Of a stretch of 64,000 nucleotides of DNA, positions 31,958-57,947 are shown piece after piece; position 1 is the first letter of the stretch, and each line of letters begins with the position of its first letter. This DNA is from Hyphomicrobium zavarzinii ATCC 27496 (GTDB lineage: Bacteria; Pseudomonadota; Alphaproteobacteria; Rhizobiales; Hyphomicrobiaceae), in contig NZ_KB911257.1 of the NCBI RefSeq assembly GCF_000383415.1, forward strand, positions 162,558 to 226,557. The letters run 5' to 3'. The notes beneath the pieces were generated by a model, which was not told the DNA's origin, did no database searches, and worked only from the letters and a program-made list of their open reading frames with translations. The translations under genes were made by a program, and so were the position numbers.

Positions 31958-32761
31958 TCACCCGTAGACGGCCGTCACGAGATCGTTGAGGCCTTGCTTC
32001 ACATCCGGGTCGTCGCTCAGCGGCTCGATGAGAGCGGCACGAATGGCCCGCTCGATCGCCATGCCGCCATGAACGAGGCTCGCGCAATAAACGAGCAGGC
32101 GCGTCGAGACGCCTTCCTCGAGATCCTGCCCCTTCAAGGCGCGGAGCTTGCCCGCAAGGCGGACCAGCGGCGCGACGCGCTCCTTCGAAAGACCGCTTTC
32201 GCTCGCGACAATGTCGATCTCGCGCTGCGGAGCGGGGAAATCGAAGTCGATCGCGAGGAAGCGCTGCCGCGTCGACGGCTTCAGCGTCTTCAGGATGTTC
32301 TGATAGCCGGGGTTATAGGACGCGACGAGCATGAACTGCGGGCCGGCTTCCAGCGTCTCTCCCGTCCGCTCGATCGGCAGGATGCGCCGGTCGTCGGTCA
32401 AGGGATGGAGGACAACGGCGACGTCCTTTCGCGCTTCCACCACCTCGTCGAGGTAGCATATGGCGCCTTCGCGAACTGCCCGCGTCAAAGGACCGTCCAC
32501 CCACTCGGTCTCACCGCCCTTGAGCAGAAAGCGGCCGATGAGATCGGCAGCCGAGAGGTCGTCGTGACAGGCGACCGTGTAGAGCGGCCGGCCGAGAACC
32601 GCGGCCATATGGGCCACGAACCGCGTCTTGCCGCATCCGGTCGGTCCCTTGAGCAAGAGCGGCATCCGGTTGCGGTAGGCCGCCCGGAACACGTCGCACT
32701 CGTCTCCGTTGGGGAGGTAGAAGGGGGCAGATGCCCCCTCCGAGAGTTGAATGGCCGCCAT
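31958..32761 (-). CDS. norQ: NorQ, MoxR/CbbQ-type AAA+ ATPase
   Basis: 267 residues: Walker A LLLKGPTGCGKTRFVAHMA near residue 34, Walker B with AICYLDEVVEARKDV near 97, sensor 1 in FMLVASYNPGYQN, and a C-terminal CbbQ/NorQ helical domain. Acts with NorD to activate the catalytic subunit. It lies 4 bp after norB and 10 bp before norD in the usual CBQD order. Confidence 0.95.
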   Translation of the reverse strand: MAAIQLSEGASAPFYLPNGDECDVFRAAYRNRMPLLLKGPTGCGKTRFVAHMAAVLGRPLYTVACHDDLSAADLIGRFLLKGGETEWVDGPLTRAVREGAICYLDEVVEARKDVAVVLHPLTDDRRILPIERTGETLEAGPQFMLVASYNPGYQNILKTLKPSTRQRFLAIDFDFPAPQREIDIVASESGLSKERVAPLVRLAGKLRALKGQDLEEGVSTRLLVYCASLVHGGMAIERAIRAALIEPLSDDPDVKQGLNDLVTAVYG

Positions 32762-45966: not shown

Positions 45967-46908
45967 ATGGGTGCCCTCAAGCCGTATATCGAGCGCATGA
46001 CGTCGGACGCGAGATCCTACGCGGCGGCGCGGCGGGGCTGGCTGTTCGCTCATCGTTTCTGGCTTATCCGGCGAATCTCGCAACTCGCCGTGCTCGGTAT
46101 CTTCCTCACCGGCCCGTGGCTCGGCATCTGGATCGCGCGCGGCAACTTCGCTTCGAGCGAGATCGTCGGCGTTCTGCCGCTCGCGGACCCTTTCATCTTC
46201 CTGCAATCGCTTGCAGCCTGGCACAAGCCCATCGCGCTCGCCGTGATCGGCGTAGCGTTCATTTCGGCGTTCTATTTTCTCGTCGGCGGACGGGCGTATT
46301 GCAGCTGGGTCTGTCCGGTCAACGTCGTGACGGACACCGCCTATTGGCTGCGCGAGAAGCTGGGCCTGACGCGCGACCGCAAGCTCGACAAGCGCACGCG
46401 CATCTGGGTGATGGTGGCGGCCCTCCTCGCGTCTGCGTTGAGCGGAACGATCGCATGGGAGTTCGTCAACCCGGTGAGCCTGCTTCAGCGCGGCCTCATC
46501 TTCGGCATGGGTGCGGGATGGGGCGTCATCGCCGCCGTTTTCATGCTCGACCTTTTCGTGACGCGGCGCGGCTGGTGCAGCCACCTGTGTCCTGTCGGCG
46601 CCTTCTACGGGCTGATCGGATCCAAGAGCGTGGTACGGGTGAGTGCCATCAACAGATCCGCCTGCACGGATTGCGGTGCCTGCTTCAAGGCGTGCCCGGA
46701 GCCTCACGTCATCACGCCCGCCCTCAAGGGAGCGGGCACACACCTGATCCTGTCCGGCGATTGCACGAACTGCGCGGCCTGCATCGACTCCTGCTACATT
46801 GATGTCTTCCAGTATGGAAACCGCTTTGCGGCCAAGCACGACCCGAGCCGATTCCTCATCGAGCCGCATGGGGTGCCGGCCTCTCAACGGCGCGAGACCG
46901 CCGCCTGA
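45967..46908 (+). CDS. mauN: MauN, membrane ferredoxin-type protein
   Basis: 313-residue NapH-family membrane protein with four or more helices (LAVLGIFLTGPWLGIWIAR, LAVIGVAFISAFYFLVGG). It has two cytoplasmic CxxxCP motifs (CSWVCPVN, CSHLCPVG) and a C-terminal dicluster ferredoxin part (CTDCGACFKACPEP, CTNCAACIDSC). The NapGH-like pairing with MauM suggests electron transfer from the quinol pool to the periplasm or the reverse. It starts 1 bp after the mauM stop and converges with the receiver gene 14 bp on. Confidence 0.94.
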   Translation: MGALKPYIERMTSDARSYAAARRGWLFAHRFWLIRRISQLAVLGIFLTGPWLGIWIARGNFASSEIVGVLPLADPFIFLQSLAAWHKPIALAVIGVAFISAFYFLVGGRAYCSWVCPVNVVTDTAYWLREKLGLTRDRKLDKRTRIWVMVAALLASALSGTIAWEFVNPVSLLQRGLIFGMGAGWGVIAAVFMLDLFVTRRGWCSHLCPVGAFYGLIGSKSVVRVSAINRSACTDCGACFKACPEPHVITPALKGAGTHLILSGDCTNCAACIDSCYIDVFQYGNRFAAKHDPSRFLIEPHGVPASQRRETAA

Positions 46909-46922
46909 CCCTAACGCTTGCC

Positions 46923-47282
46923 TCACATGCACTTGCGCAGCGTCTCGCAGATCTTGTGGGCATCGTAGGGCTTGTCGACACGGAGCTTGTCGCGATCCTC
47001 GAAGCGCAAGGCGCTGGCGCCGTATCCCGTCGCAAAGATGTAGGGAATGTCGCGCTCGTTCAGAACGTCCGCGACGGGCGCAGAGGTCTGGCCAGAGCCG
47101 AGGTTCACGTCCAGCACCGCCGCGTCGATCGAATTGAGAGAGATGCATTCGAGGGCCTGGCGCGTGTCGTAGGCTGGGCCGACGACGATGCATCCCGCAT
47201 CCTGCAGGATGTCCGCGAGCACGATCGCGATGAGAGGCTCGTCCTCCACCACCAGGATGCGCTTACCGTTCAGCGGATCCAT
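46923..47282 (-). CDS. Single-domain response regulator
   Basis: 119 residues that form only a receiver: acidic residues in VVEDEP, phospho-acceptor Asp58 (AAVLDVNLGSG), Thr in FATGYGA and Lys in RVDKPYDAHK. There is no output domain, so it acts by protein contact or as a phosphate sink. It overlaps the end of the upstream HWE kinase gene within a few bases and is the last gene of the signalling operon. The start at 47282 is chosen over a longer frame to 47315. Confidence 0.88.
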   Translation of the reverse strand: MDPLNGKRILVVEDEPLIAIVLADILQDAGCIVVGPAYDTRQALECISLNSIDAAVLDVNLGSGQTSAPVADVLNERDIPYIFATGYGASALRFEDRDKLRVDKPYDAHKICETLRKCM

Positions 47283-47286
47283 GTCA

Positions 47287-48717
47287 TTACCCGTCGATCG
47301 GAAGGAATAGTTCACACGAAATACCTCTGTCAGTAAACTCGCAGGCGTATTCGCCGTTCGATTGCGCAGCCAAGGACTTCAAGAGGCGCGTGCCGAAGCC
47401 GACGTGGCTCGGCTCGACGGCCGGCGGCCCGCCGTTCTCCTTCCACCTGAAATGCAGCCGCTGCTTCTGCGGCGCGGGGTCGACGCTCCAGGAGATGGCG
47501 ATCTTTCCGTCGGGCACGGAGTAGGCCCCATATTTGACCGCATTGGTGAGAAGCTCGTGGATGGCCAGGGTGACGGATATGGCATCACGGGAAGACAGCA
47601 CCACGTCCTCGCCATCGCGAAGGAGACGCGGTGTCTCGTCGCGATAAGGCGCGAACAGCGCATCGAGCACGTCGACCAGGCGCGCGCCGTTCCATTGGCT
47701 CTGGGTCAGAAGATTGTGGCCGGTGGCCAAGGCGTGGATGCGAGACAGGAAGCGGTCCTTCTGCTCGCCCTGCGCGCCCATCATGCTCTGCAAGGCAATG
47801 GACTGCACCGTGGCCAGCATGTTCTTGACACGATGATTGAGCTCGTCGATCAGCAGCGAGCGGGCTTCCTCGGCCTGCTTTCTTTCGGTTATGTCGAGCG
47901 CGAGCCCCGTCAGGGAGCCTGGCAGACCATTGACGCCGGGAACGTAGTGGCCCTGCTCACGCAGCCACCGGATCGTGCCGTCGCTGTGCTTCACGCGCAG
48001 CTCGGCCTCATAGGCGCCACGCGTGACGATGGCCTTTTGCCATGCTTCCGTGACGGCGCCCACGTCCTGCTCATGTATCCTCTTCAGCCACTCGTCCGTC
48101 GGGCACGTGCTGTCCTCGGGAGGAAGCCCGAGAATCACGTTCAGGCTTTCGTCCCACTGGCTCATGCGATTACTGAGATCATGCCGCCACGTTCCCATCT
48201 TCGCTGCGGCGAGGGCCTGGCGGAAACGTTCCTCGCTCTTGCTCAGACGCGCCGTGGAGGCCTCCAGCTCCGACGTTCGTTCCGCCACGCTCCGCTCGAG
48301 GTTTGCGGCGAGGCGCTCGAGCTCGCGCGCCTTGCGGTAAAGCTCGATGAAGACTTTCACCTTGGCACGCAGGATCTGCGGAACGACCGGGACCGGGACG
48401 TAGTCCACCGCGCCGAACTCGTATCCGCGGATGCGATCGAGATCAGAGAGAAGAACAGCGGAGATGAAGATCACGGCGATGTTCTGAAAGCGGGGATGCT
48501 CGCGAATGAGCTGAACGAGCTCGAATCCATCGAGATCCGGCATGCAGACGTCCACGAGAACGACGGCGACATCCGTCTTCAGGAGAACTGCCAGGGCCTC
48601 GTTTGCCGAGTTGGCGGAGATCAGATTTTCTCCCAGGTCACGCAGGATCACCTCGTAGCTCAGGAGCTTCGAAGGTTGATCGTCCACGAGCAGGATGTTC
48701 ACTGCTTCCGGCAGCAC
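47287..48717 (-). CDS. Response regulator-PAS-HWE histidine kinase
   Basis: 476 residues: an N-terminal receiver (Asp56 in VVLVDVCMPDLDG), a coiled coil (about 125-160), one PAS domain with PAC (about 162-280, ending LDITERKQAEEA), then an HWE-family kinase with phospho-acceptor His295 (LIDELNHRVKNMLATVQS) and the LHFRWKENGGPP signature. HWE kinases are common in alphaproteobacteria, often feeding the general stress response. It has no membrane segment. It lies 10 bp after the giant hybrid kinase gene and can plausibly receive phosphate from it. Confidence 0.92.
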   Translation of the reverse strand: MLPEAVNILLVDDQPSKLLSYEVILRDLGENLISANSANEALAVLLKTDVAVVLVDVCMPDLDGFELVQLIREHPRFQNIAVIFISAVLLSDLDRIRGYEFGAVDYVPVPVVPQILRAKVKVFIELYRKARELERLAANLERSVAERTSELEASTARLSKSEERFRQALAAAKMGTWRHDLSNRMSQWDESLNVILGLPPEDSTCPTDEWLKRIHEQDVGAVTEAWQKAIVTRGAYEAELRVKHSDGTIRWLREQGHYVPGVNGLPGSLTGLALDITERKQAEEARSLLIDELNHRVKNMLATVQSIALQSMMGAQGEQKDRFLSRIHALATGHNLLTQSQWNGARLVDVLDALFAPYRDETPRLLRDGEDVVLSSRDAISVTLAIHELLTNAVKYGAYSVPDGKIAISWSVDPAPQKQRLHFRWKENGGPPAVEPSHVGFGTRLLKSLAAQSNGEYACEFTDRGISCELFLPIDG

Positions 48718-48727
48718 GTCGTCCCTC

Positions 48728-51700
48728 CTAGCGGTGCAGCCACATGCGCAACGAGGCCAGCAACTGCTCCGTGTTGACGGGTTTCGCCAAGTAGTCCGAA
48801 GCTCCCGCTTCCAGACATTTCTCCCGGTCGCCCTTCATGGCTTTCGCCGTCAGGGCGATGATCGGCAGCCGCCTCCATTTCCCTTCGGCGCGAATGGCCT
48901 GCATGGTTTCATAGCCATCCATCTCAGGCATCATGATGTCCATGAGAACGATGGAAATCTCAGGGCTTTCCCGCAAACACTCGATCGCCTCGGCGCCGTT
49001 TGTCGCGGTCAAGACGTTCATTCCCCGCCGTTCGAGCACACTGCTCAGCGCGAAAATGTTGCGGGCGTCGTCATCCACCAGAAGCGCCGAACGGCCCACC
49101 AGCGCGTCGTCCGAGCGATGGAGGCGCTCGAGCATGCGCTGCTTCTCAGGCGGCAGATCGGGCACGACGCGATGCAGGAAGAGCGCGGTCTCATCCAGGA
49201 GACGCTCCGGCGATTCCACACCCTTGACGACGACACTGCGCGCCATGGAATGCAGCTTTTGATCGTCTTCCGCAGACAGCTCGCGGCCCGTGAATACGAC
49301 CACGGGAATGCTGGACAGCTCGGCGTCGTCGCCCAACGTCTCCAGGATCTCGAAGCCCGTCATGTCGGGAAGCTTGAGATCGAGCACGACGCAATCAACG
49401 GGTGTCACGCGTAGATAGCTCAAGCACTCGGCGCCGTTCGAAACCGTGTCGATGTCGATGTCCTCGTGGCTCAGCAGCTCCCTGATGCCCATCTGCTCGG
49501 CCGGATTGTCCTCCACTACGAGAAGTCGGCGGCGCCGGTTCGCGCTGAACTCCTTGATGCGCTCCAGCGCCTCGCGAAGGACTTCAGTCGTTGCCGGCTT
49601 GGTGAGGAAGGCGAACGCGCCCTGAGCCAGTCCGTGCTGACGATCCTCGTCCAGTGTGACGAGTTGCACCGGAATGTGACGTGTGGCCGGGTTCTGCTTG
49701 AGCTGACTCAGTACGCTCCACCCCAGCATGTCCGGCAGGAAGACGTCGAGTGAGATGGCGTTGGGATTGAACTCGTTGGCGAGCGCCAGCGCGTCGGCTC
49801 CCCTCTGCGTGATAACGACCTTGAAGCCGCTGTCCTTGGCGAGGTCGGCGACGATGCGTGCGTAGTGCGGATCGTCCTCGACGACCAGAAGGACAGCATC
49901 GCCGGACGCGATGTCGTCCCGATCGTCCTCAACGGTTTCCACCACGCGCTCCGGTAAACGGAGCACCGGCGGCTCGAGACGCGTCCTGTTCCGGGCCACG
50001 GTCTCCGCATCCGCGACCACGCTCACCGGCGCCGAATATTTCTGCGGCAGGAAAAGGGTGAACGTGCTGCCCTTGCCGGGCGCGCTGTGCAACTGGATCT
50101 CGCCGCCGAGAAGGCTCGACAGCTCGCGGCTGATCGCGAGGCCCAATCCCGTGCCGCCGTACTTTCTGCTGGTGCTGGCATCCGCCTGCTGGAAGGCCTC
50201 AAAAATGATCTTCTGCTTCTCCGGCAGAATGCCGATGCCGGTATCCGTCACCTCGAAGGCGATCACGGACGGCGCGCCATTGAGCGTTGGATGGTCATAG
50301 CTCCAGCCGCCGGTCGCCGACGAGACCGTGAGCTTGACGCCGCCGCTCTCGGTGAACTTGAAGGCGTTCGAAAGAAGGTTCTTGAGCACCTGCTGAAGCC
50401 GTTTCGCGTCGGTGACGATGCTGCGGCCCAGCGTCGGACTGAGGTCCACATCGAACGACAGACTGCGGTTCTCGGCCTCGTGGCGGAACGGGCGCGCGAT
50501 GGAGTCGAGCAGGCTCGGCAGATGCAGCTCTTCCGCATCGACGGACACTGTTCCGGATTCGATCTTGGATAGATCGAGGATGTCGCTGATGAGGTTCAAC
50601 AGATCGCTTCCGGCTCCGTGAATGGTACGGGCAAACTCCACCTGCCTGTCGGAGAGGTTTCCGTCTGCGTTCTCGCTCAACTGTTGGCCCAGAATAAGGA
50701 TGCTATTGAGCGGCGTTCTGAGCTCATGGGACATGTTCGCCAGGAATTCGGACTTGTACTTCGACGTGAGCGCGAGCTCGGTCGCCTTCTCTTCGAGCGC
50801 TCGGCGGGCGTGCTCGATCTCCTGATTCTTGGCCTCCACCTCGACGTTGCGCTCGGCAAGCTGCTGTGCCTTCTGGCCGAGCTGATCGTTCGTCGTCTGC
50901 AGCTCCTTCTTCTGCTCCTGCAGCTCCTGGGCGAGCTTCTGGCTCTGCTTCAGAAGCGCTTCGGTCTGCATGGTGGCTTCGATGCTGTTGAGAACGATGC
51001 CGATGCTGGCGGTCAACTGCTCGAGGAAGGTGAGGTGGGCCTTGTCGAACTCGTAGAGCGACGCGATGCCGAGCACGGCCTTGAGCTGCTCTTCGAAGAC
51101 CACGGGCAGCACGACGATGCTGCGCGGCCGGGTTTCCAGCAACCCCGCGCCCACCGGAACCACGTCCTCGGGTATGTCGGTCACGAGAATGCGCTGCTTC
51201 TCGACAGCGCACTGGCCGATGAACCCCTTGCCCAGCTCCACGGTCTGAGGATAGCCGCGATCGGGATGATCGGCGTACTTGCCGAGAAGCTTGAGCTTCT
51301 GATTGTCGTCGGGGCTCATCTGATAGATGACGCCTTGCTGGCCGCGCACGAGCGGCACCAGCTCGGAAAGAAGCCTGCTGCCAACCGTGGTCAGATCACG
51401 CTGGCCCTGCAGCATGCCAGTGAAGCGCGCGAGGTTGGTCTTCAGCCAGTCCTGATCCGTGTTCCGCTCGGTGGTGAGGCGGAGATTGTCGATCATGGTG
51501 TTGATGTAGTCTTTCAGCTCCGCCACCTCTCCGCGGGCGTCCACCTGAATCGAGCGGGTCAAGTCTCCCTCGGTCACAGCGGTCGCCACCTCGGCGATGG
51601 CGCGAACCTGGTTCGTGAGATTGTCGGCAAGCAGGTTGACGTTGCCGGTGAGATCCTTCCACGTTCCGGCAGCGCCCGGCACGTTGGCCTGTCCGCCGAG

Positions 51701-54700
51701 GCGGCCCTCGACGCCCACTTCGCGCGCCACCGTCGTCACCTGATCGGCAAAGATGGCCAGCGTGTCCGTCATGTCATTGATGGTCTCAGCGAGGGCAGCG
51801 ACCTCGCCCTTCGAATTCACGGTGAGGCGCTGCTTGAGATCTCCGCCCGCGACGGCATTCACCACCTTGACGATGCCACGCACCTGCTCCGTGAGGTTGG
51901 CCGCCATCACGTTCACGGTGTCGGTCAGATCCTTCCACGTACCGGCGACGCCAGGAACCTGAGCCTGGCCGCCCAACTTGCCCTCCGTGCCGACCTCGCG
52001 GGCGACGCGCGTCACTTCGGAGGCGAAGGCATTGAGCTGATCCACCATCGTGTTGATGGTGTTCTTGAGCTCCAGGATCTCGCCCTTCACGTCCACCGTG
52101 ATCTTGCGCGAGAGGTCACCTCGCGCCACCGCCGTCGTCACCTCGGCGATGTTACGCACCTGGGCCGTGAGGTTTCCGGCCATCGAATTCACGCTGTCGG
52201 TGAGATCTTTCCAGGTGCCTGCCACCACACCAGGCACGACGGCCTGCCCGCCGAGGCGGCCTTCGGTGCCGACCTCACGGGCGACGCGTGTCACCTCCGC
52301 CGCGAACGAGCGGAGCTGCTCCACCATCGTATTGAGCGTTTCCTTGAGCGATAGGATCTCGCCGCGCACGTCCACCGAGATCTTCTTCGAGAGATCGCCC
52401 TGGGCGATGGCGGTTGCGACCTCTGCGATGTTGCGCACCTGGGCGGTGAGGTTTGACGCCATGAAGTTGACGCTGTCGGTGAGGTCCTTCCAAGTTCCGG
52501 CGACGCCCGGCACCTGCGCCTGTCCGCCGAGCTTGCCTTCCGTTCCGACCTCGCGCGCCACGCGGGTCACCTCGCCCGCGAAAGCGTTCAACTGATCCAC
52601 CATGGTGTTGATGGTGGCCTTCAGCTCGAGAATTTCGCCGCGCACATCCACCGTGATCTTGCGCGAGAGATCGCCCCGCGCCACGGCGGTCGTGACGTCG
52701 GCGATGTTGCGCACCTGCGTCGTGAGGTTTGCCGCGAGCAGGTTGACGTTGTCGGTCAGATCCTTCCACGTGCCCGCGACACCCGGGACATTGGCCTGCC
52801 CGCCGAGACGGCCTTCCGTACCCACCTCACGCGCCACGCGCGTCACCTCTCCCGCGAAGCGGTTGAGCTGATCCACCATCGTGTTCAGCGTTTCCTTGAG
52901 CTGCAGGATCTCGCCGCGCACATCGACCGTGATCTTGCGCGAAAGGTCTCCGTTGGCGATCGCGGTTGCAACGTCGGCGATGTTGCGCACCTGATTGGTG
53001 AGGTTGGAGGCCATGGAATTGACGCTGTCGGTCAAATCTTTCCAGGTGCCCGCGACGCCCGGCACCTGGGCCTGCCCCCCGAGCTTGCCTTCGGTGCCGA
53101 CCTCACGGGCGACGCGCGTCACCTCGGCGGCGAAGGCGTTGAGCTGATCCACCATGGTGTTGATGGTCTCGGCAAGCTGAAGGATCTCGCCGCTGACGTT
53201 GACGGTGATCTTCTTGGACAAGTCTCCGAGCGCCACGGCGGTGGCGACCTCGGCGATGTTGCGCACCTGCCCGGTGAGATTCGACGCCATGGAATTGACG
53301 CTGTCGGTGAGATCCTTCCAAGTGCCCGCGACGCCGCGCACCACGGCTTGGCCGCCGAGCTTGCCTTCGGTGCCGACCTCACGGGCGACGCGTGTCACCT
53401 CGCCCGCGAAGGCGTTGAGCTGATCGACCATCGTATTGATGGTTTCCTTCAGCTCCAGCACCTCGCCGCGCACGTCCACCGCGATCTTCTTCGAAAGGTC
53501 TCCGTTGGCGATGGCCGTGGACACCTCGGCGATGTTGCGCACCTGGGTCGTCAGGTTGCTCGCCATCGAGTTCACACTGTCGGTGAGGTCCTTCCAGGTG
53601 CCCGCAACGCCGCGCACATCCGCCTGGCCACCGAGGCGGCCTTCGGTGCCCACCTCACGCGCCACGCGCGTCACCTCGAAGGCGAAGGCGTTGAGCTGAT
53701 CGACCATCGTGTTGATGGTCTCCTTGAGCTGAAGGATCTCGCCGCTGACGTTGACGGTGATCTTCTTCGAGAGGTCCCCGCCGGCGATGGCGGTGGCGAC
53801 CTCCGCGATGTTGCGCACCTGGTTGGTGAGGTTGCCAGCCATCGAGTTGACGTTGTCGGTGAGATCCTTCCAGGTACCGGCGACGCCCGGAACCTGTGCC
53901 TGGCCGCCGAGACGGCCTTCGGTGCCCACTTCACGCGCGACGCGCGTCACCTCGGAGGCAAAGGCATTGAGCTGGTCCACCATGGTGTTGATGGTGTTCT
54001 TCAGCTCCAGGATCTCGCCCTTCACGTCCACCGTGATCTTGCGCGAGAGATCGCCGCGCGCCACGGCCGTCGTCACCTCAGCGATATTGCGCACCTGCGT
54101 CGTGAGGTTCGCCGCCAGCAGGTTCACGTTGTCGGTCAGGTCTTTCCAGGTGCCTGCGACGCCCGGCACGACAGCCTGGCCGCCGAGACGGCCTTCCGTG
54201 CCGACCTCGCGGGCGACACGTGTCACCTCCGCCGCGAACGAGCGGAGCTGATCCACCATGGTGTTGATGGCTTCCTTGAGCTGGAGGATCTCTCCGCGCA
54301 CGTCCACCGTGATCTTCTTCGAAAGGTCGCCGTTGGCGACTGCGATGGTGACGTCGGCGATGTTGCGCACCTGGGCCGTGAGGTTCGAAGCCATCGAGTT
54401 CACGCTTTCGGTGAGGTCTTTCCAGACGCCCGTCACCTCGCTCACCTGGGCCTGACCGCCGAGCTTTCCGTCCGTGCCCACCTCACGCGCCACGCGCGTC
54501 ACCTCGGAGGTAAAGATCGAGAGCTGGTTGATCATCGTGTTGACGATGGTGGCCGAGCGCAGGAAGTCGCCGGCGAGCGGGCGGCCGTCGACATCGAGAC
54601 GCATCTTCTGCAGCAGGTCTCCCTGCGCGACCGCGCGAATGGTGCGCGTGACTTCCGCCGTCGGCCACAAGAGGTCGTCGATCAGGGAGTTGATGGAGGA

Positions 54701-55021
54701 TTCCATTTCGCCCCAGGCACCGGCCGGAGTGCCGATGCGCACGCGCAGCTTGGTCTTTCCCTCGCGCCCGACCACCTCTCCGACGCGATCGAGCTGCTGG
54801 GCCATGCGCTCGTTCGTCGAGACGATCTCGTTGAAGGCATCGGCCACCCGCCCCCACAGATCAGGCCAATCGCCCGGCAGCCTCACAGAGAAGTCACCCT
54901 GACGCATGGCCTGGAGATTGTACAAAAGCTCGCCGAGGTGGCCGCTCATGTCCCGGCCGTTCGCGGGCTTTGCGAGGGGGACTTCCTCTGAGGACGCTAC
55001 GCCTGTGCCTAAGTCGGTCAT
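48728..55021 (-). CDS. Giant cytoplasmic poly-HAMP hybrid histidine kinase with three receivers
   Basis: 2097 residues and no membrane helix. Residues 1-123: unit with degenerate HAMP features. 124-1138: eleven tandem units of about 92 residues (each ending WKDLTDSVN...NLT-Q), plus a partial twelfth to about 1190. 1195-1350: GAF domain. 1355-1420: coiled coil. Kinase: His1432 ([17 protein letters not shown]), N box [13 protein letters not shown] boxes DTGIGI and GGTGLGL. Receivers: Asp1759, Asp1881, Asp2028. There is no Hpt. The layout recalls Nik1/Os-1-type osmosensing kinases, here with more repeats. Upstream small membrane proteins and the EcfG-like promoter suggest a stress role. Confidence 0.93.
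51608..54652 (-). repeat. Eleven tandem ~276-bp coding repeats (poly-HAMP array)
   Basis: Protein repeats of 92 residues, numbered from the N-terminus: unit 1 is 94 residues and the most divergent; units 2-8 are exactly 92; unit 9 has one extra Val (VPGVVAGTW); units 10 and 11 are 92. Units 2-10 are nearly identical in protein sequence ([33 protein letters not shown] motifs recur), so the DNA is prone to recombination and assembly error. Confidence 0.9.
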
Positions 55022-55084
55022 CTAGTTGCTCCGAACGAGATACGTATCGGTTGCGTTAAGCGTGGACGAGAGCACGTGCCGTCA

Positions 55085-55357
55085 CTATCCCCGTCGGGGC
55101 TTGTTCTTCAGAACGATTGCGAAGACGATGAGAAAAAACGTGAGGAGCCGCACGAAGTAGTAGACCGGCTCATGCTCCTCCAACGACGGATTGACGCCGA
55201 GATAGAAGCGGCCGATGCCGTCGACACCGAAAGCGACGGCGAACAACAGAAAAAATACGTCCCGCGTCTGCCGCCAGAACTTGAGGAAGAAAAGCGAGGC
55301 CATCAGAGAGGCCATCGCCACGGCACCGAGCAGAACGGAGTTGACCTGATCGTTCAT
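55085..55357 (-). CDS. Small membrane protein, DUF5985-like (second of pair)
   Basis: 90 residues with three hydrophobic segments (SVLLGAVAMASLMASLFFLK, FFLLFAVAFGVDGIGRF, LLTFFLIVFAIVLKN), the last followed by a basic tail. It resembles DUF5985 proteins and the gene just upstream. The start at 55357 overlaps the preceding stop (ATGA). Function unknown; its fixed place before a giant soluble hybrid kinase suggests a membrane partner or anchor for signalling. Confidence 0.78.
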   Translation of the reverse strand: MNDQVNSVLLGAVAMASLMASLFFLKFWRQTRDVFFLLFAVAFGVDGIGRFYLGVNPSLEEHEPVYYFVRLLTFFLIVFAIVLKNKPRRG

Positions 55358-55614
55358 TCCGAATCCCACACCAAGCCATAGAGGAGGATCATCATCGCGC
55401 CGAGCGCGCTCGCCGTGCGCCACAACGAAAGGTCACCATCGGGAATGACAAGCTTGTCGATCACCAGCAGAAGATTGTTGATGGTGAGGCCCGCGAAGCA
55501 AAGTCCGCTCCAGAGCAGCAGGCGGTAGCCGCTCTTCGCGTAAGCATTCAGCAAGAGGTACGTGCACAAGAGGGCCGTCATGGCACAGAGGCTGTAGATG
55601 GTCGCGACGATCAT
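55354..55614 (-). CDS. Small membrane protein, DUF5985-like (first of pair)
   Basis: 86 residues, three hydrophobic segments (TIYSLCAMTALLCTYLLLN, LLLWSGLCFAGLTINNLLLV, TASALGAMMILLYGLVW). Start overlaps the stop of the winged-helix gene and stop overlaps the next DUF5985-like gene, so three genes are translationally coupled. The two small proteins could form a heteromeric membrane unit; this is inference from pairing alone. Confidence 0.78.
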   Translation of the reverse strand: MIVATIYSLCAMTALLCTYLLLNAYAKSGYRLLLWSGLCFAGLTINNLLLVIDKLVIPDGDLSLWRTASALGAMMILLYGLVWDSE

Positions 55615-55991
55615 CCACGGTCCTTTCTCAGTTTGAACGCATTGGCGAACTCCCGAATTCGGCGCGGCTTCGAGTGGATTATGTTGGTAACGGCGATGAG
55701 GTTGCTCTTGTAGGTCTCGGCCAGACGCGCCACCATTTGCTCAATCTCCGGAGAACGAGGGGCATACCGGTATATTCCGTCCCCGCACGCGAGCAGTCCG
55801 TCGTTGCACAGATTGGCAAGGATCTCCTCCGTGCTCTGCTCTGAGATATAGAGTCGTCTGGCCGTGGAGGTGACATCCCAAACCTCTTCCTCGTGGCGGC
55901 GTAGAAGAAGCAGAGCCTCTATCTGGGCGATCGAATCGATGTGCCTCAGGATGAAGTCCTGAAGATCCAGAGGTACTGGGCTCTCCGACAT
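55611..55991 (-). CDS. Winged-helix-like regulatory protein at the head of the signalling operon
   Basis: 126 residues, helical, with a winged-helix-like region: LQDFILRHIDSIAQIEALLLL, then VWDVTSTARRLYISEQSTEEILANLCNDGLLACG, resembling a MarR/transcription factor-type fold. It lacks any catalytic motif. First gene of an operon with two small membrane proteins and the poly-HAMP kinase. I start at ATG 55991; the open frame runs further up but that part looks non-coding and contains the promoter-like element. Confidence 0.75.
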   Translation of the reverse strand: MSESPVPLDLQDFILRHIDSIAQIEALLLLRRHEEEVWDVTSTARRLYISEQSTEEILANLCNDGLLACGDGIYRYAPRSPEIEQMVARLAETYKSNLIAVTNIIHSKPRRIREFANAFKLRKDRG

Positions 55992-56013
55992 TGCTCTTCT
56001 GGACTCACCCCTT

Positions 56014-56045
56014 TGTGCTGCGTGATAGGTGTGCTGCGTGATAGG
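56014..56045. repeat. 16-bp perfect tandem duplication in the operon leader
   Basis: TGTGCTGCGTGATAGG occurs twice in succession (56014-56029 and 56030-56045), 23-54 bp before the winged-helix gene start. It falls in the probable untranslated leader downstream of the EcfG-like promoter and may alter leader structure. Confidence 0.7.
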
Positions 56046-56147
56046 CAAACTGCGCCAGCCGATGTGACAGTCATCGGCCAGGCTCAGCGGACGGATCGAC
56101 AAAAAAAGTCTTGCTCTCGTGCACCCCGATAGCGGCGAACTCAGCAA

Positions 56148-56172
56148 AACGCGGCACGGGCGCGAAGGTTCC
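56148..56172 (-). promoter_or_regulatory. EcfG (general stress sigma factor) type promoter
   Basis: On the minus strand GGAAC (56172-56168), a 16-bp spacer, and CGTT (56151-56148) match the alphaproteobacterial EcfG consensus GGAAC-N16/17-CGTT exactly, about 157 bp upstream of the first gene of the signalling operon. The remaining part of 55992-56374 holds no gene. Confidence 0.65.
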
Positions 56173-56374
56173 CATCTGAGGCCGAAGAAAATTGGAGCCG
56201 CCGGCGGCGGTGCTACGAGGCCGTCATCTTGACCTCTGCTGGAGCACTCTTTCGCCAGATCCTGGCCTCTAACGGATGATTGCAAAACGCAGCGAGCCCG
56301 CCACCCCAAAGGGGTGCTGGCTCACTGATCGTGACGTCTTTGAAAAGGGTGCGCGGGGCCGGACGCGGAATGCT

Positions 56375-57106
56375 CTAGAAGAGATCCATCCAGCGGTTCA
56401 CTACGCGCTCACCAAACGCGCGCTGAGCAGCGTCGAACTGCGCGAACTCGCGGTCCATCCTCGCAGCCATGTCCGCGATCTCCGCCTCGGAATGGCCGGT
56501 CTCGGACGAGAGTTCCCTGCGAAGCCAGATGTCCACGACCTCGCGCTCGGCTTCGAAGTGGCACTGGAAGCCATAGGTCTTCGCACCCACGCGATACACC
56601 TGATTTGGAATATTGTCGCCGTGCATCAGGTGAACGGCCCCCGGCGGTAACGCCAGCGTGTCGTTGTGCATCTCAAAAAGCGGAATGCTCTCGGGTGTAT
56701 CGTGGAGCAGCGCATCCGATGCGGCTTCGGGCTTTACCCTGAGCTCCGTGAACCCGAACTCGAAGAAGCCTTGCGGCATCGCACCGCCGCCCAATGCGCA
56801 AGCGATGCTTTGCGCGCCGAGGCAGGATCCGAATACCGGCTTTTCGTCCTCGTGAAACGCGCGGATCGTCCGGAACAGGCCGTCGAAATAATCTGCATAG
56901 CGCGGATCGTGAGCACCGATCTCGCCGCCGAACACGATCAGCCCGTCAAACTGCTTCGTTTGTTCGGGGAGCGCGTCGCCCTTCAACCTGAACGACCAGT
57001 GGAGGTCGGCCCCCCGATCCTGCACGACTTTTCCGATGCATCCTGTTTCTTCGACACCGGCCATGCCGCCGGGCATGATGGCGAGAATCTTCACGGGAAC
57101 GGTCAC
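56375..57106 (-). CDS. Class-I glutamine amidotransferase-like hydrolase
   Basis: 243 residues of the GATase1 fold with the catalytic triad: nucleophile Cys95 (FGSCLGAQSIACALGG), His183 and Glu185 (FQCHFEAE). No synthetase domain is attached. Stand-alone relatives include hydrolases that cleave gamma-glutamyl amides (PuuD, IpuF, and the AtdA2/TdnT-type proteins of aniline clusters). Co-location with a glutamine-synthetase-like ligase 2 kb away makes that role plausible; GMP synthase-like annotation is the cautious alternative. Last gene of this minus-strand cluster. Confidence 0.85.
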   Translation of the reverse strand: MTVPVKILAIMPGGMAGVEETGCIGKVVQDRGADLHWSFRLKGDALPEQTKQFDGLIVFGGEIGAHDPRYADYFDGLFRTIRAFHEDEKPVFGSCLGAQSIACALGGGAMPQGFFEFGFTELRVKPEAASDALLHDTPESIPLFEMHNDTLALPPGAVHLMHGDNIPNQVYRVGAKTYGFQCHFEAEREVVDIWLRRELSSETGHSEAEIADMAARMDREFAQFDAAQRAFGERVVNRWMDLF

Positions 57107-57158
57107 CAGGGTCTTCCAGCTCTCGAATGAAGGATCGCCTCTCGGCGACGCGTGGTCT

Positions 57159-57947
57159 CTACTTTTTCGATTTCGCGGGCTTCGGCATGAGGTTGTACAA
57201 ACTCACGCGCGTCGCCTCGATGTGCATTTTCATGCGCTGCGCGGCAAGCTCACTGTTCTGGCTCTCGATCGCCGCGTAGATACCCTGATGATGATCGTTC
57301 GCGCGATCCTCCAGGCGGTTGAACACCTTTCCGACGGGCAGGAACATCGCCGCGCGCGATTGCTCGACCGCCTCGAAAAGAAAATGGTTCATGGACGCTT
57401 CGGCGATGGCGAGATGAAACTCGGAGTCGCAGGCGAAGAAGCGTGCGATGTTGGAGATGTTCGCGCGGCTTTCCTTGTTCGCACACAGCGCATCCATTTC
57501 GGTGAGCGCGCTGCGCAGGCGGGCGAGATGCTTCTTGTCGCGCCGCACGGCCGCGAGCGAAGCTGCAGCGCATTCGTTCGCCAGCCTGTATTCGAAGAGG
57601 CTGTCGAGAAGACCCCTCTGGGTCTCCATGTAGGCCTCGATCTCCGCATTGTTCAGCCGGTTCTGGCCGAGCACGATGAGACCTCCCGCAGCGCCGCGCT
57701 TGACCGCGAGCAATCCCTCGCCTTCGAGTACGCGGATCGCCTCGCGGATCGTCGTTCTAGATACGAGCATCTGCGTGGCCAAATCCCGCTCGGGAGGGAG
57801 CTTGTCTCCCGGCATGAAGCGGCCGAGGAAAATTGCCTTGCGAAGCTGCTCGACGACCAGCTCGTAAGTCGCTGTGGCCCTGATGGAGCCGATCGAATGA
57901 TCCGGCTGTTTAACGGGAGCAGAGGGGTTCACGTGTTTTGCTCTCAT
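57159..57947 (-). CDS. GntR/FadR-family (FCD) transcriptional regulator
   Basis: 262 residues: an N-terminal winged helix (LRKAIFLGRFMPGDKLPPER, SRTTIREAIRVLEGEGLL) followed by an FCD ligand-binding domain (about 115-240) with the helical metal-site pattern (ACDSEFHLAIAEAS, NHFLFEAV, DDHHQGIYAAIE-type His residues). It likely represses the neighbouring catabolic genes until an acidic metabolite binds. A near-perfect 19-bp palindrome lies 46 bp upstream of the ATG. Confidence 0.9.
   Translation of the reverse strand: MRAKHVNPSAPVKQPDHSIGSIRATATYELVVEQLRKAIFLGRFMPGDKLPPERDLATQMLVSRTTIREAIRVLEGEGLLAVKRGAAGGLIVLGQNRLNNAEIEAYMETQRGLLDSLFEYRLANECAAASLAAVRRDKKHLARLRSALTEMDALCANKESRANISNIARFFACDSEFHLAIAEASMNHFLFEAVEQSRAAMFLPVGKVFNRLEDRANDHHQGIYAAIESQNSELAAQRMKMHIEATRVSLYNLMPKPAKSKK

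Follow-up and report, generated by a model that had tools for sequence, protein, structure and literature searches.

To our knowledge the cues sensed by the PhyR-EcfG system are largely open in most alphaproteobacteria, and a direct handle on sensing would be provided by a sensor operon which is controlled by the sigma factor of this very response and which carries a kinase and a receiver akin to those encoded beside phyR. Such an operon appears to be present in the window, that is, the whole stretch of 64,000 nucleotides of Hyphomicrobium zavarzinii DNA analyzed here. The locus raises two questions: whether the operon is transcribed from an EcfG-type promoter, and what its products contribute to the general stress response. 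The best reading, based upon sequence, is that the operon would encode, for this response, a sensor and phosphorelay module induced by stress, resembling the SigT-controlled lovK-lovR genes.

Genes of the operon

The operon is composed of six genes on the minus strand; genes 1 and 2, and genes 2 and 3, overlap by 4 nt, and the gaps which follow measure 63, 10 and 4 nt. A preliminary description had listed a hybrid kinase, an HWE kinase, a lone receiver and two small membrane proteins, all of which are borne out by domain matches. To this list we add that the structure model of the gene 1 product is that of a winged-helix protein, that both membrane proteins belong to DUF5985, that the HWE kinase also carries receiver and PAS domains, and that the receiver is of the FATGYG kind. 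Genes 1 to 3 (window 55085–55991) form a three-gene cassette which is present in records of several phyla.

Gene 1 (55611–55991, minus strand) is predicted to specify a winged-helix protein of 126 amino acids. The best PDB neighbours of its structure model (pLDDT 88) are MarR- and ArsR-type regulators [E about 0.001], and its one Pfam match, DUF4423, falls below the cut-off. Its ATG at 55991 and its sequence are retained in two congeners possessing the same operon (G001 and G003), and the alignment with relatives starts at this codon; the open frame itself extends further upstream. Gene 2 (55354–55614, minus strand) encodes a small membrane protein identified through Pfam as DUF5985, the modelled fold of which, with three predicted helices, gave no match in the PDB at E≤0.001. 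Gene 3 (55085–55357, minus strand) specifies a second small membrane protein matched by Pfam DUF5985.

Gene 4 (48728–55021, minus strand) encodes a poly-HAMP hybrid kinase of 2097 amino acids, identified through its Pfam domains: each of two HAMP models matches 11 times, and GAF, HisKA and HATPase domains as well as three receivers are present. Inspection of the sequence by eye suggests no transmembrane part. With its HAMP array, histidine kinase and receivers gene 4 has the predicted layout of a group III (poly-HAMP) hybrid kinase, a class known elsewhere for osmotic and drug responses. It shares the long poly-HAMP array, the histidine kinase and several receivers with the group III proteins AskA and AskB of Myxococcus and fungal NIK1, as these are presented in PMC7643160. 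The HAMP region of gene 4 also matches SpoIIID and HTH_6, and the same matches are reported there for AskA/AskB. Unlike these proteins, gene 4 lies behind an EcfG-type promoter and shares its operon with the genes of an HWE kinase and of a FATGUY receiver. HmrA, which possesses one HAMP only (PMC11481889), is of a different kind.

Gene 5 (47287–48717, minus strand) was identified through Pfam as a receiver-PAS-HWE histidine kinase. Its HWE_HK domain is matched at E 2e-20, the candidate phospho-accepting histidine lies in LNHRVKN, and the best PDB match is a blue-light-activated histidine kinase [6ph4]. Gene 6 (46923–47282, minus strand, with an alternative start GTG at 47315) specifies a single-domain receiver of the FATGUY type (IFATGYG), for which the best PDB match is SdrG [5ieb, E 2e-19]. 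The motif reads IPYIFATGYG in the window, IPFIFATGYG in G001 and IPFMFATGYG in G003. Compared with the printed consensus PFXFATG(G/Y), which both congeners match, the protein of the window (PYIFATGY) has Y for F once.

Core stress-response genes

The preliminary description had tied the operon to the PhyR-NepR-EcfG system, and had named the absence of these genes from the genome as one outcome that would speak against such a tie. We found phyR, nepR and ecfG all present. The core locus reads, on one strand, nepR, ecfG, phyR, a single-domain receiver with a FATGHG motif and an HWE kinase, and exact motifs precede both phyR and nepR-ecfG. Throughout the genus nepR was found in 8/8 genomes, each time behind an exact motif, and the same holds for phyR at 7/7 readable loci. 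Most of the computational tests applied support the link: these core genes with their exact motifs, the recurrence of the motif in the genus, either in place with one mismatch or shifted to the kinase itself, and its presence at 12 of 38 poly-HAMP kinases (see below). The drift of the site in the closest congeners and the 26 kinases of the 38 with no exact site speak against it.

The putative promoter and its placement

The sequence GGAACCTTCGCGCCCGTGCCGCGTT occupies positions 56172–56148 of the minus strand, with a -35 element GGAAC at 56172–56168, a spacer of 16 nt and a -10 element CGTT at 56151–56148. The exact GGAAC-N16-CGTT had been described beforehand, and both sequence and place agree. 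It is the very consensus of the EcfG regulon promoters of R. etli as printed in PMC3892343. The distance between this promoter and the ATG of gene 1 is 156 nt. It had further been claimed that nothing else lies between the motif and the first gene, which is likewise the case: the only same-strand reading frame found here is the upstream extension of gene 1 itself, no Rfam family matched 46000–57200 at gathering scores, and no sigma-70-like site was found on the minus strand of 46800–56700, a region in which terminator-like matches are at shuffle level.

The 5' leader (55992–56147, minus strand) is long, at about 150 nt, whereas the EcfG sites of S. melonis mostly lie closer to the gene, at least in that part of PMC6599016 which was available. 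It contains two copies of a 16-nt repeat at 56014–56045 (plus strand, TGTGCTGCGTGATAGG).

Two exact matches to the motif are found in the 64-kb window (shuffle mean 0.30; two or more in 7 of 100 shuffles). The second, at 32686 on the plus strand, lies within a called gene of the opposite strand (31958–32761). The flanks of the two sites were compared by means of a model trained on 13 nepR and phyR sites from seven other genomes of the genus. While the second match ranks only 58th of 83, the promoter of the window ranks 7th, directly followed at 8 by the nepR site of this genome. Its score exceeds the 90th percentile obtained with random flanks but not the 95th, and the leave-one-out scores scatter widely; we regard the rank as supporting evidence only.

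The motif in the genome

Might the site be a chance match, the operon being read from an unrecognised promoter? The genome scanned comprises 4.65 Mb in 15 contigs, in which GGAAC-N16/17-CGTT occurs 84 times, versus 74 times for the reversed motif, our control. These figures fit a chance origin, and because of them a sequence match alone proves nothing. Genes were called by a home-made simple codon model, and sites lying no more than 300 nt before a same-strand gene were considered upstream. On this basis 83 of the 84 motif sites could be classified (the one on C11 was left out) and 50 of the 74 reversed controls; 25/83 motif sites are upstream compared with 11/104 pooled controls (reversed motif 5/50, wrong spacing 6/54; one-sided Fisher p=0.0007). 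A genome scan had been proposed as a check, and its outcome is divided: the motif is enriched upstream of genes but shows no global excess. By the control rate of 11/104, about one in three of the upstream sites would be there by chance. The site of the window is itself outside the 25, because the gene caller truncated gene 1. Sites with its N16 spacing are weakly enriched upstream (13/60, p=0.046). Sites with N17 show a stronger enrichment (12/23, p=3e-5), which makes up most of the signal.

The Pfam scan covered 17 of the 25 head genes behind upstream sites. They include phyR, nepR-ecfG, two PRC-barrel proteins, DUF892, DJ-1/PfpI, PspC, PepSY and a ClpP-like protease, among others; some of these are of kinds expected in a general stress response. 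PRC-barrel also occurs in the S. melonis EcfG table (PMC6599016), where the variants GGTT, CATT, GCAAC and GGGAC are likewise listed as putative sites, each belonging to genes that depend on EcfG. Within the examined DNA of the present genome, and with small numbers, these variants stand upstream of genes in 3/9 (GGTT), 2/3 (CATT), 1/13 (GCAAC) and 1/8 (GGGAC) instances; GCAAC and GGGAC are not enriched upstream, and GGTT and CATT make a better showing.

Conservation in the genus and family

The strongest support for the promoter reading is comparative. The two nearest congeners, which possess the same operon, have GGAAC-N16-GGTT at -160 (G001) and GGGAC-N17-CGTT at -155 (G003); that each carries a mismatch again fits a chance match. 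A member of another genus (G014), which has the cassette and no such kinase in 13 kb, shows GCAAC-N16-CGTT at -183. One-mismatch sites between -130 and -212, an interval picked after the sites had been seen, are thereby present in 3/8 family relatives possessing gene 1, a number reached by 0/2000 shuffle sets. The other five (G077, G082, G090, G092 and G106) have no site with up to one mismatch in the 350 nt upstream of gene 1, nor does a ninth, weak relative (G097) which was left out of the eight. Locus L155, at which an exact site is located at the kinase, seems to belong to G077.

The informative cases are three congeners (G005, G006 and G007) which lack gene 1, and lack the cassette at the kinase, and here the site stands at the kinase itself: in G007 an exact site precedes its GTG by 38 nt, in G005 an exact site with N17 spacing precedes it by 45 nt, and in G006 GGAAC-N16-CATT, with one mismatch, lies 20 nt before the longest kinase frame. 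Strict orthology of these kinases is unsure, since their N-termini are only 51 to 54% identical to that of the window. At L155 (Hyphomicrobium sp. CS1BSMeth3) an exact N17 site is found between the second DUF5985 gene and the kinase, and at two further loci (L161 and L167) the cassette is preceded by an exact N17 site, the poly-HAMP kinase being on the other strand. Taken together, the sites at the kinase in G005–G007 and L155, and at the cassette in L161 and L167, suggest that the promoter follows the poly-HAMP kinase module though the gene order changes. Among six readable genomes of the genus the operon or kinase site is exact in three (the window, G005 and G007) and carries one mismatch in three (G001, G003 and G006); it drifts more within the genus than do the nepR and phyR sites.

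The arrangement at L155 bears upon a second alternative, namely that the promoter at 56148–56172 serves the DUF5985 cassette only and that the kinases have their own promoter, located within the cassette or in the 63 nt between it and gene 4. We consider this unlikely: no other two genes of the operon are as far apart as these 63 nt, and L155 has its exact site at just this position, yet the 600 nt upstream of the N-terminal domain of the window kinase contain no exact or one-mismatch EcfG site, and the lack of sigma-70-like sites and the shuffle-level terminator matches noted above also speak against it.

Two observations were made in passing. In G006 (L042/L048) the poly-HAMP kinase match is broken by a TGA, and the promoter-like site is retained. 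In two congeners without the cassette (L047 8775–10175 and L052 1048–2451) a related protein of about 466 amino acids, by eye of the outer-membrane beta-barrel type, is encoded just upstream of the kinase.

Putative promoters of poly-HAMP kinases in the class

Kinases were also drawn by their 178 N-terminal residues, promoters being disregarded, from 22/385 and 24/398 genomes, of which four, the window's own among them, were shared. The N-termini were anchored by tblastn and the 600 nt upstream of each were searched. An exact same-strand site was present at 12/38 alphaproteobacterial loci (window excluded), belonging to 5/21 genera, with 10 of the 12 coming from three genera. In 400 shuffles the mean was 0.25 and the maximum 3; on the opposite strand 5/38 exact sites were found, and for the reversed motif 0/38. 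None of the 12 is within the kinase frame, their distance to its farthest start being 73 to 177 nt. In the genus labelled f27g53, 5/9 loci have an exact site; spacers differ there, and what is retained is the motif with some of the flank downstream of it. Allowing for one mismatch, the counts are 23 on the same strand, 17 on the opposite strand and 5 for the reversed motif, so that only exact sites discriminate by strand. Because of these counts, and of the poor showing of GCAAC and GGGAC, that part of the conservation argument which depends upon one-mismatch sites is weakened. The exact site is absent from the 600 nt upstream of 26/38 kinases, and EcfG-type control of poly-HAMP kinases thus appears to be recurrent, not universal. 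Kinases from outside the class, used as control, gave 0/5 exact sites, a sample too small to count.

This independent draw, the flank rank of the window site and the return of the motif within the genus, in part directly before the kinase, make a chance match decidedly improbable, and we consider it very likely that the promoter is EcfG-dependent. The recurrence at poly-HAMP kinases, together with the FATGUY motif of the receiver, provides a stronger argument than those of the preliminary description, in which both were absent; that description was right on sequence and is probably right on meaning. Since several other members of the class carry the same site before kinases akin to this one, the stress programme would probably replenish the sensors on which it depends, and the recurrence in several genera gives a choice of hosts.

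A putative stress-induced phosphorelay

The mechanism which we propose starts from a working EcfG promoter, from which one six-gene operon would be transcribed from about 56141 to 46923, the genes presumably being co-transcribed. Under stress PhyR would become active and EcfG be freed, with the consequence that more of a signalling module is made: the winged-helix protein, two DUF5985 proteins, the cytoplasmic poly-HAMP kinase of group III type, the HWE kinase and the FATGUY receiver. These last two, which are related to the kinase and receiver encoded beside phyR, might then exchange phosphate with the PhyR pathway, through which the operon would reset the gain of the stress response in one direction or the other, and the poly-HAMP kinase could bring in a further cue, perhaps an osmotic one. 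What the sequence shows is the motif with its placement and partial conservation, the presence of the core genes, and how the proteins are related by domain and family; transcription, the joining of all six genes in one transcript, phosphotransfer, the cue and the sign of a feedback are inferred from it. As a whole, from EcfG promoter through six-gene operon to a module feeding back on the PhyR pathway, we hold this explanation to be likely; for the feedback on PhyR taken by itself the chances are roughly even.

The nearest known system is lovK-lovR of Caulobacter crescentus which, as described in PMC5964349, likewise consists of a kinase and a single-domain receiver under the stress sigma factor and is able to feed back on the PhyR pathway. 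In the operon of the window, by comparison, a receiver-PAS-HWE kinase and a FATGUY receiver stand behind a poly-HAMP kinase and a DUF5985 cassette. According to the same source several kinases of Caulobacter load MrrA, and the SigT-controlled LovK-LovR can drain it; in Sphingomonas, according to PMC5898713, kinases load the FATGUY receiver SdrG and PhyT hands phosphate to PhyR. By the logic of these two organisms the pair encoded by the operon would either add a stress-induced input or act as a sink. Gene 6 shares with SdrG and MrrA the FATGYG motif and an HWE kinase as neighbour, and SdrG is its best PDB match; it differs in that its genome encodes at least one more receiver of this kind (FATGHG), located at the phyR locus.

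A third alternative accepts the operon as an EcfG target and makes it output only, its kinases signalling not to PhyR but to unrelated regulators, for example in osmotic adaptation or attachment. We give this reading somewhat less than an even chance. The cassette and the group III kinase do occur together outside the Alphaproteobacteria, group III-like kinase sequence being found within 3 kb at 19/80 of the best 80 of 140 cassette loci, and the poly-HAMP kinases AskA and AskB of Myxococcus act on development (PMC7643160). Against it stands the kinship of the HWE kinase and receiver to the pair beside phyR: the two receivers are 50% identical over 100 residues, and the two kinases are similar over their receiver (29%) and kinase (32%) parts. 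Moreover FATGUY receivers act in the general stress response in three species, a fourth being untested in the source (PMC5964349). If the preferred reading is correct, the operon is of a known kind in that a co-regulated kinase and receiver are controlled by the stress response; what is new is its build around a group III kinase. No paper linking general-stress sigma control with a group III kinase was found in the open-access literature searched.

The DUF5985 cassette

In the open-access literature searched no paper contains the word DUF5985, and the operon would provide the first regulatory context for these proteins. Among the best 80 of 140 cassette loci a second DUF5985 gene is present in 77/80 and gene 1 in 76/80. 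Since the cassette is also found outside the Alphaproteobacteria, where EcfG is not expected, its basic job is not tied to the stress response. Nor do we favour the cassette as a conserved EcfG target: among the best 80 of 140 loci an exact same-strand site was found at 2/24 alphaproteobacterial loci (L161 and L167) and 0/52 others, the class being taken from record titles, with four doubtful loci (L143, L144, L149 and L156) set aside and L159, titled Frankia and without a site, counted as alphaproteobacterial on a guess.

The nearest long frames encode a HATPase in 9/72 cases upstream of the cassette and 5/71 downstream, with no dominant partner (L141, L142, L185, L201, L203 and L208 were left out of this survey, as were a few loci without a suitable frame). 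Glycosyltransferase family 20, which includes trehalose-6-phosphate synthase, equals the kinases among the downstream neighbours (5/71, L143–L220); such neighbours would fit an osmotic role.

Other sequences were noted upstream of gene 1 or its relatives. At three loci (L233, L234 and L235) a gene distantly related to gene 1 is preceded, at about 86–102 nt, by exact EcfG motifs on the opposite strand, which possibly belong to divergent general-stress genes. The Peristeroidobacter and Steroidobacter loci (L218 and L220) have in common GGAACTTTC...CATT 88 nt before gene 1, perhaps the site of another ECF sigma factor.
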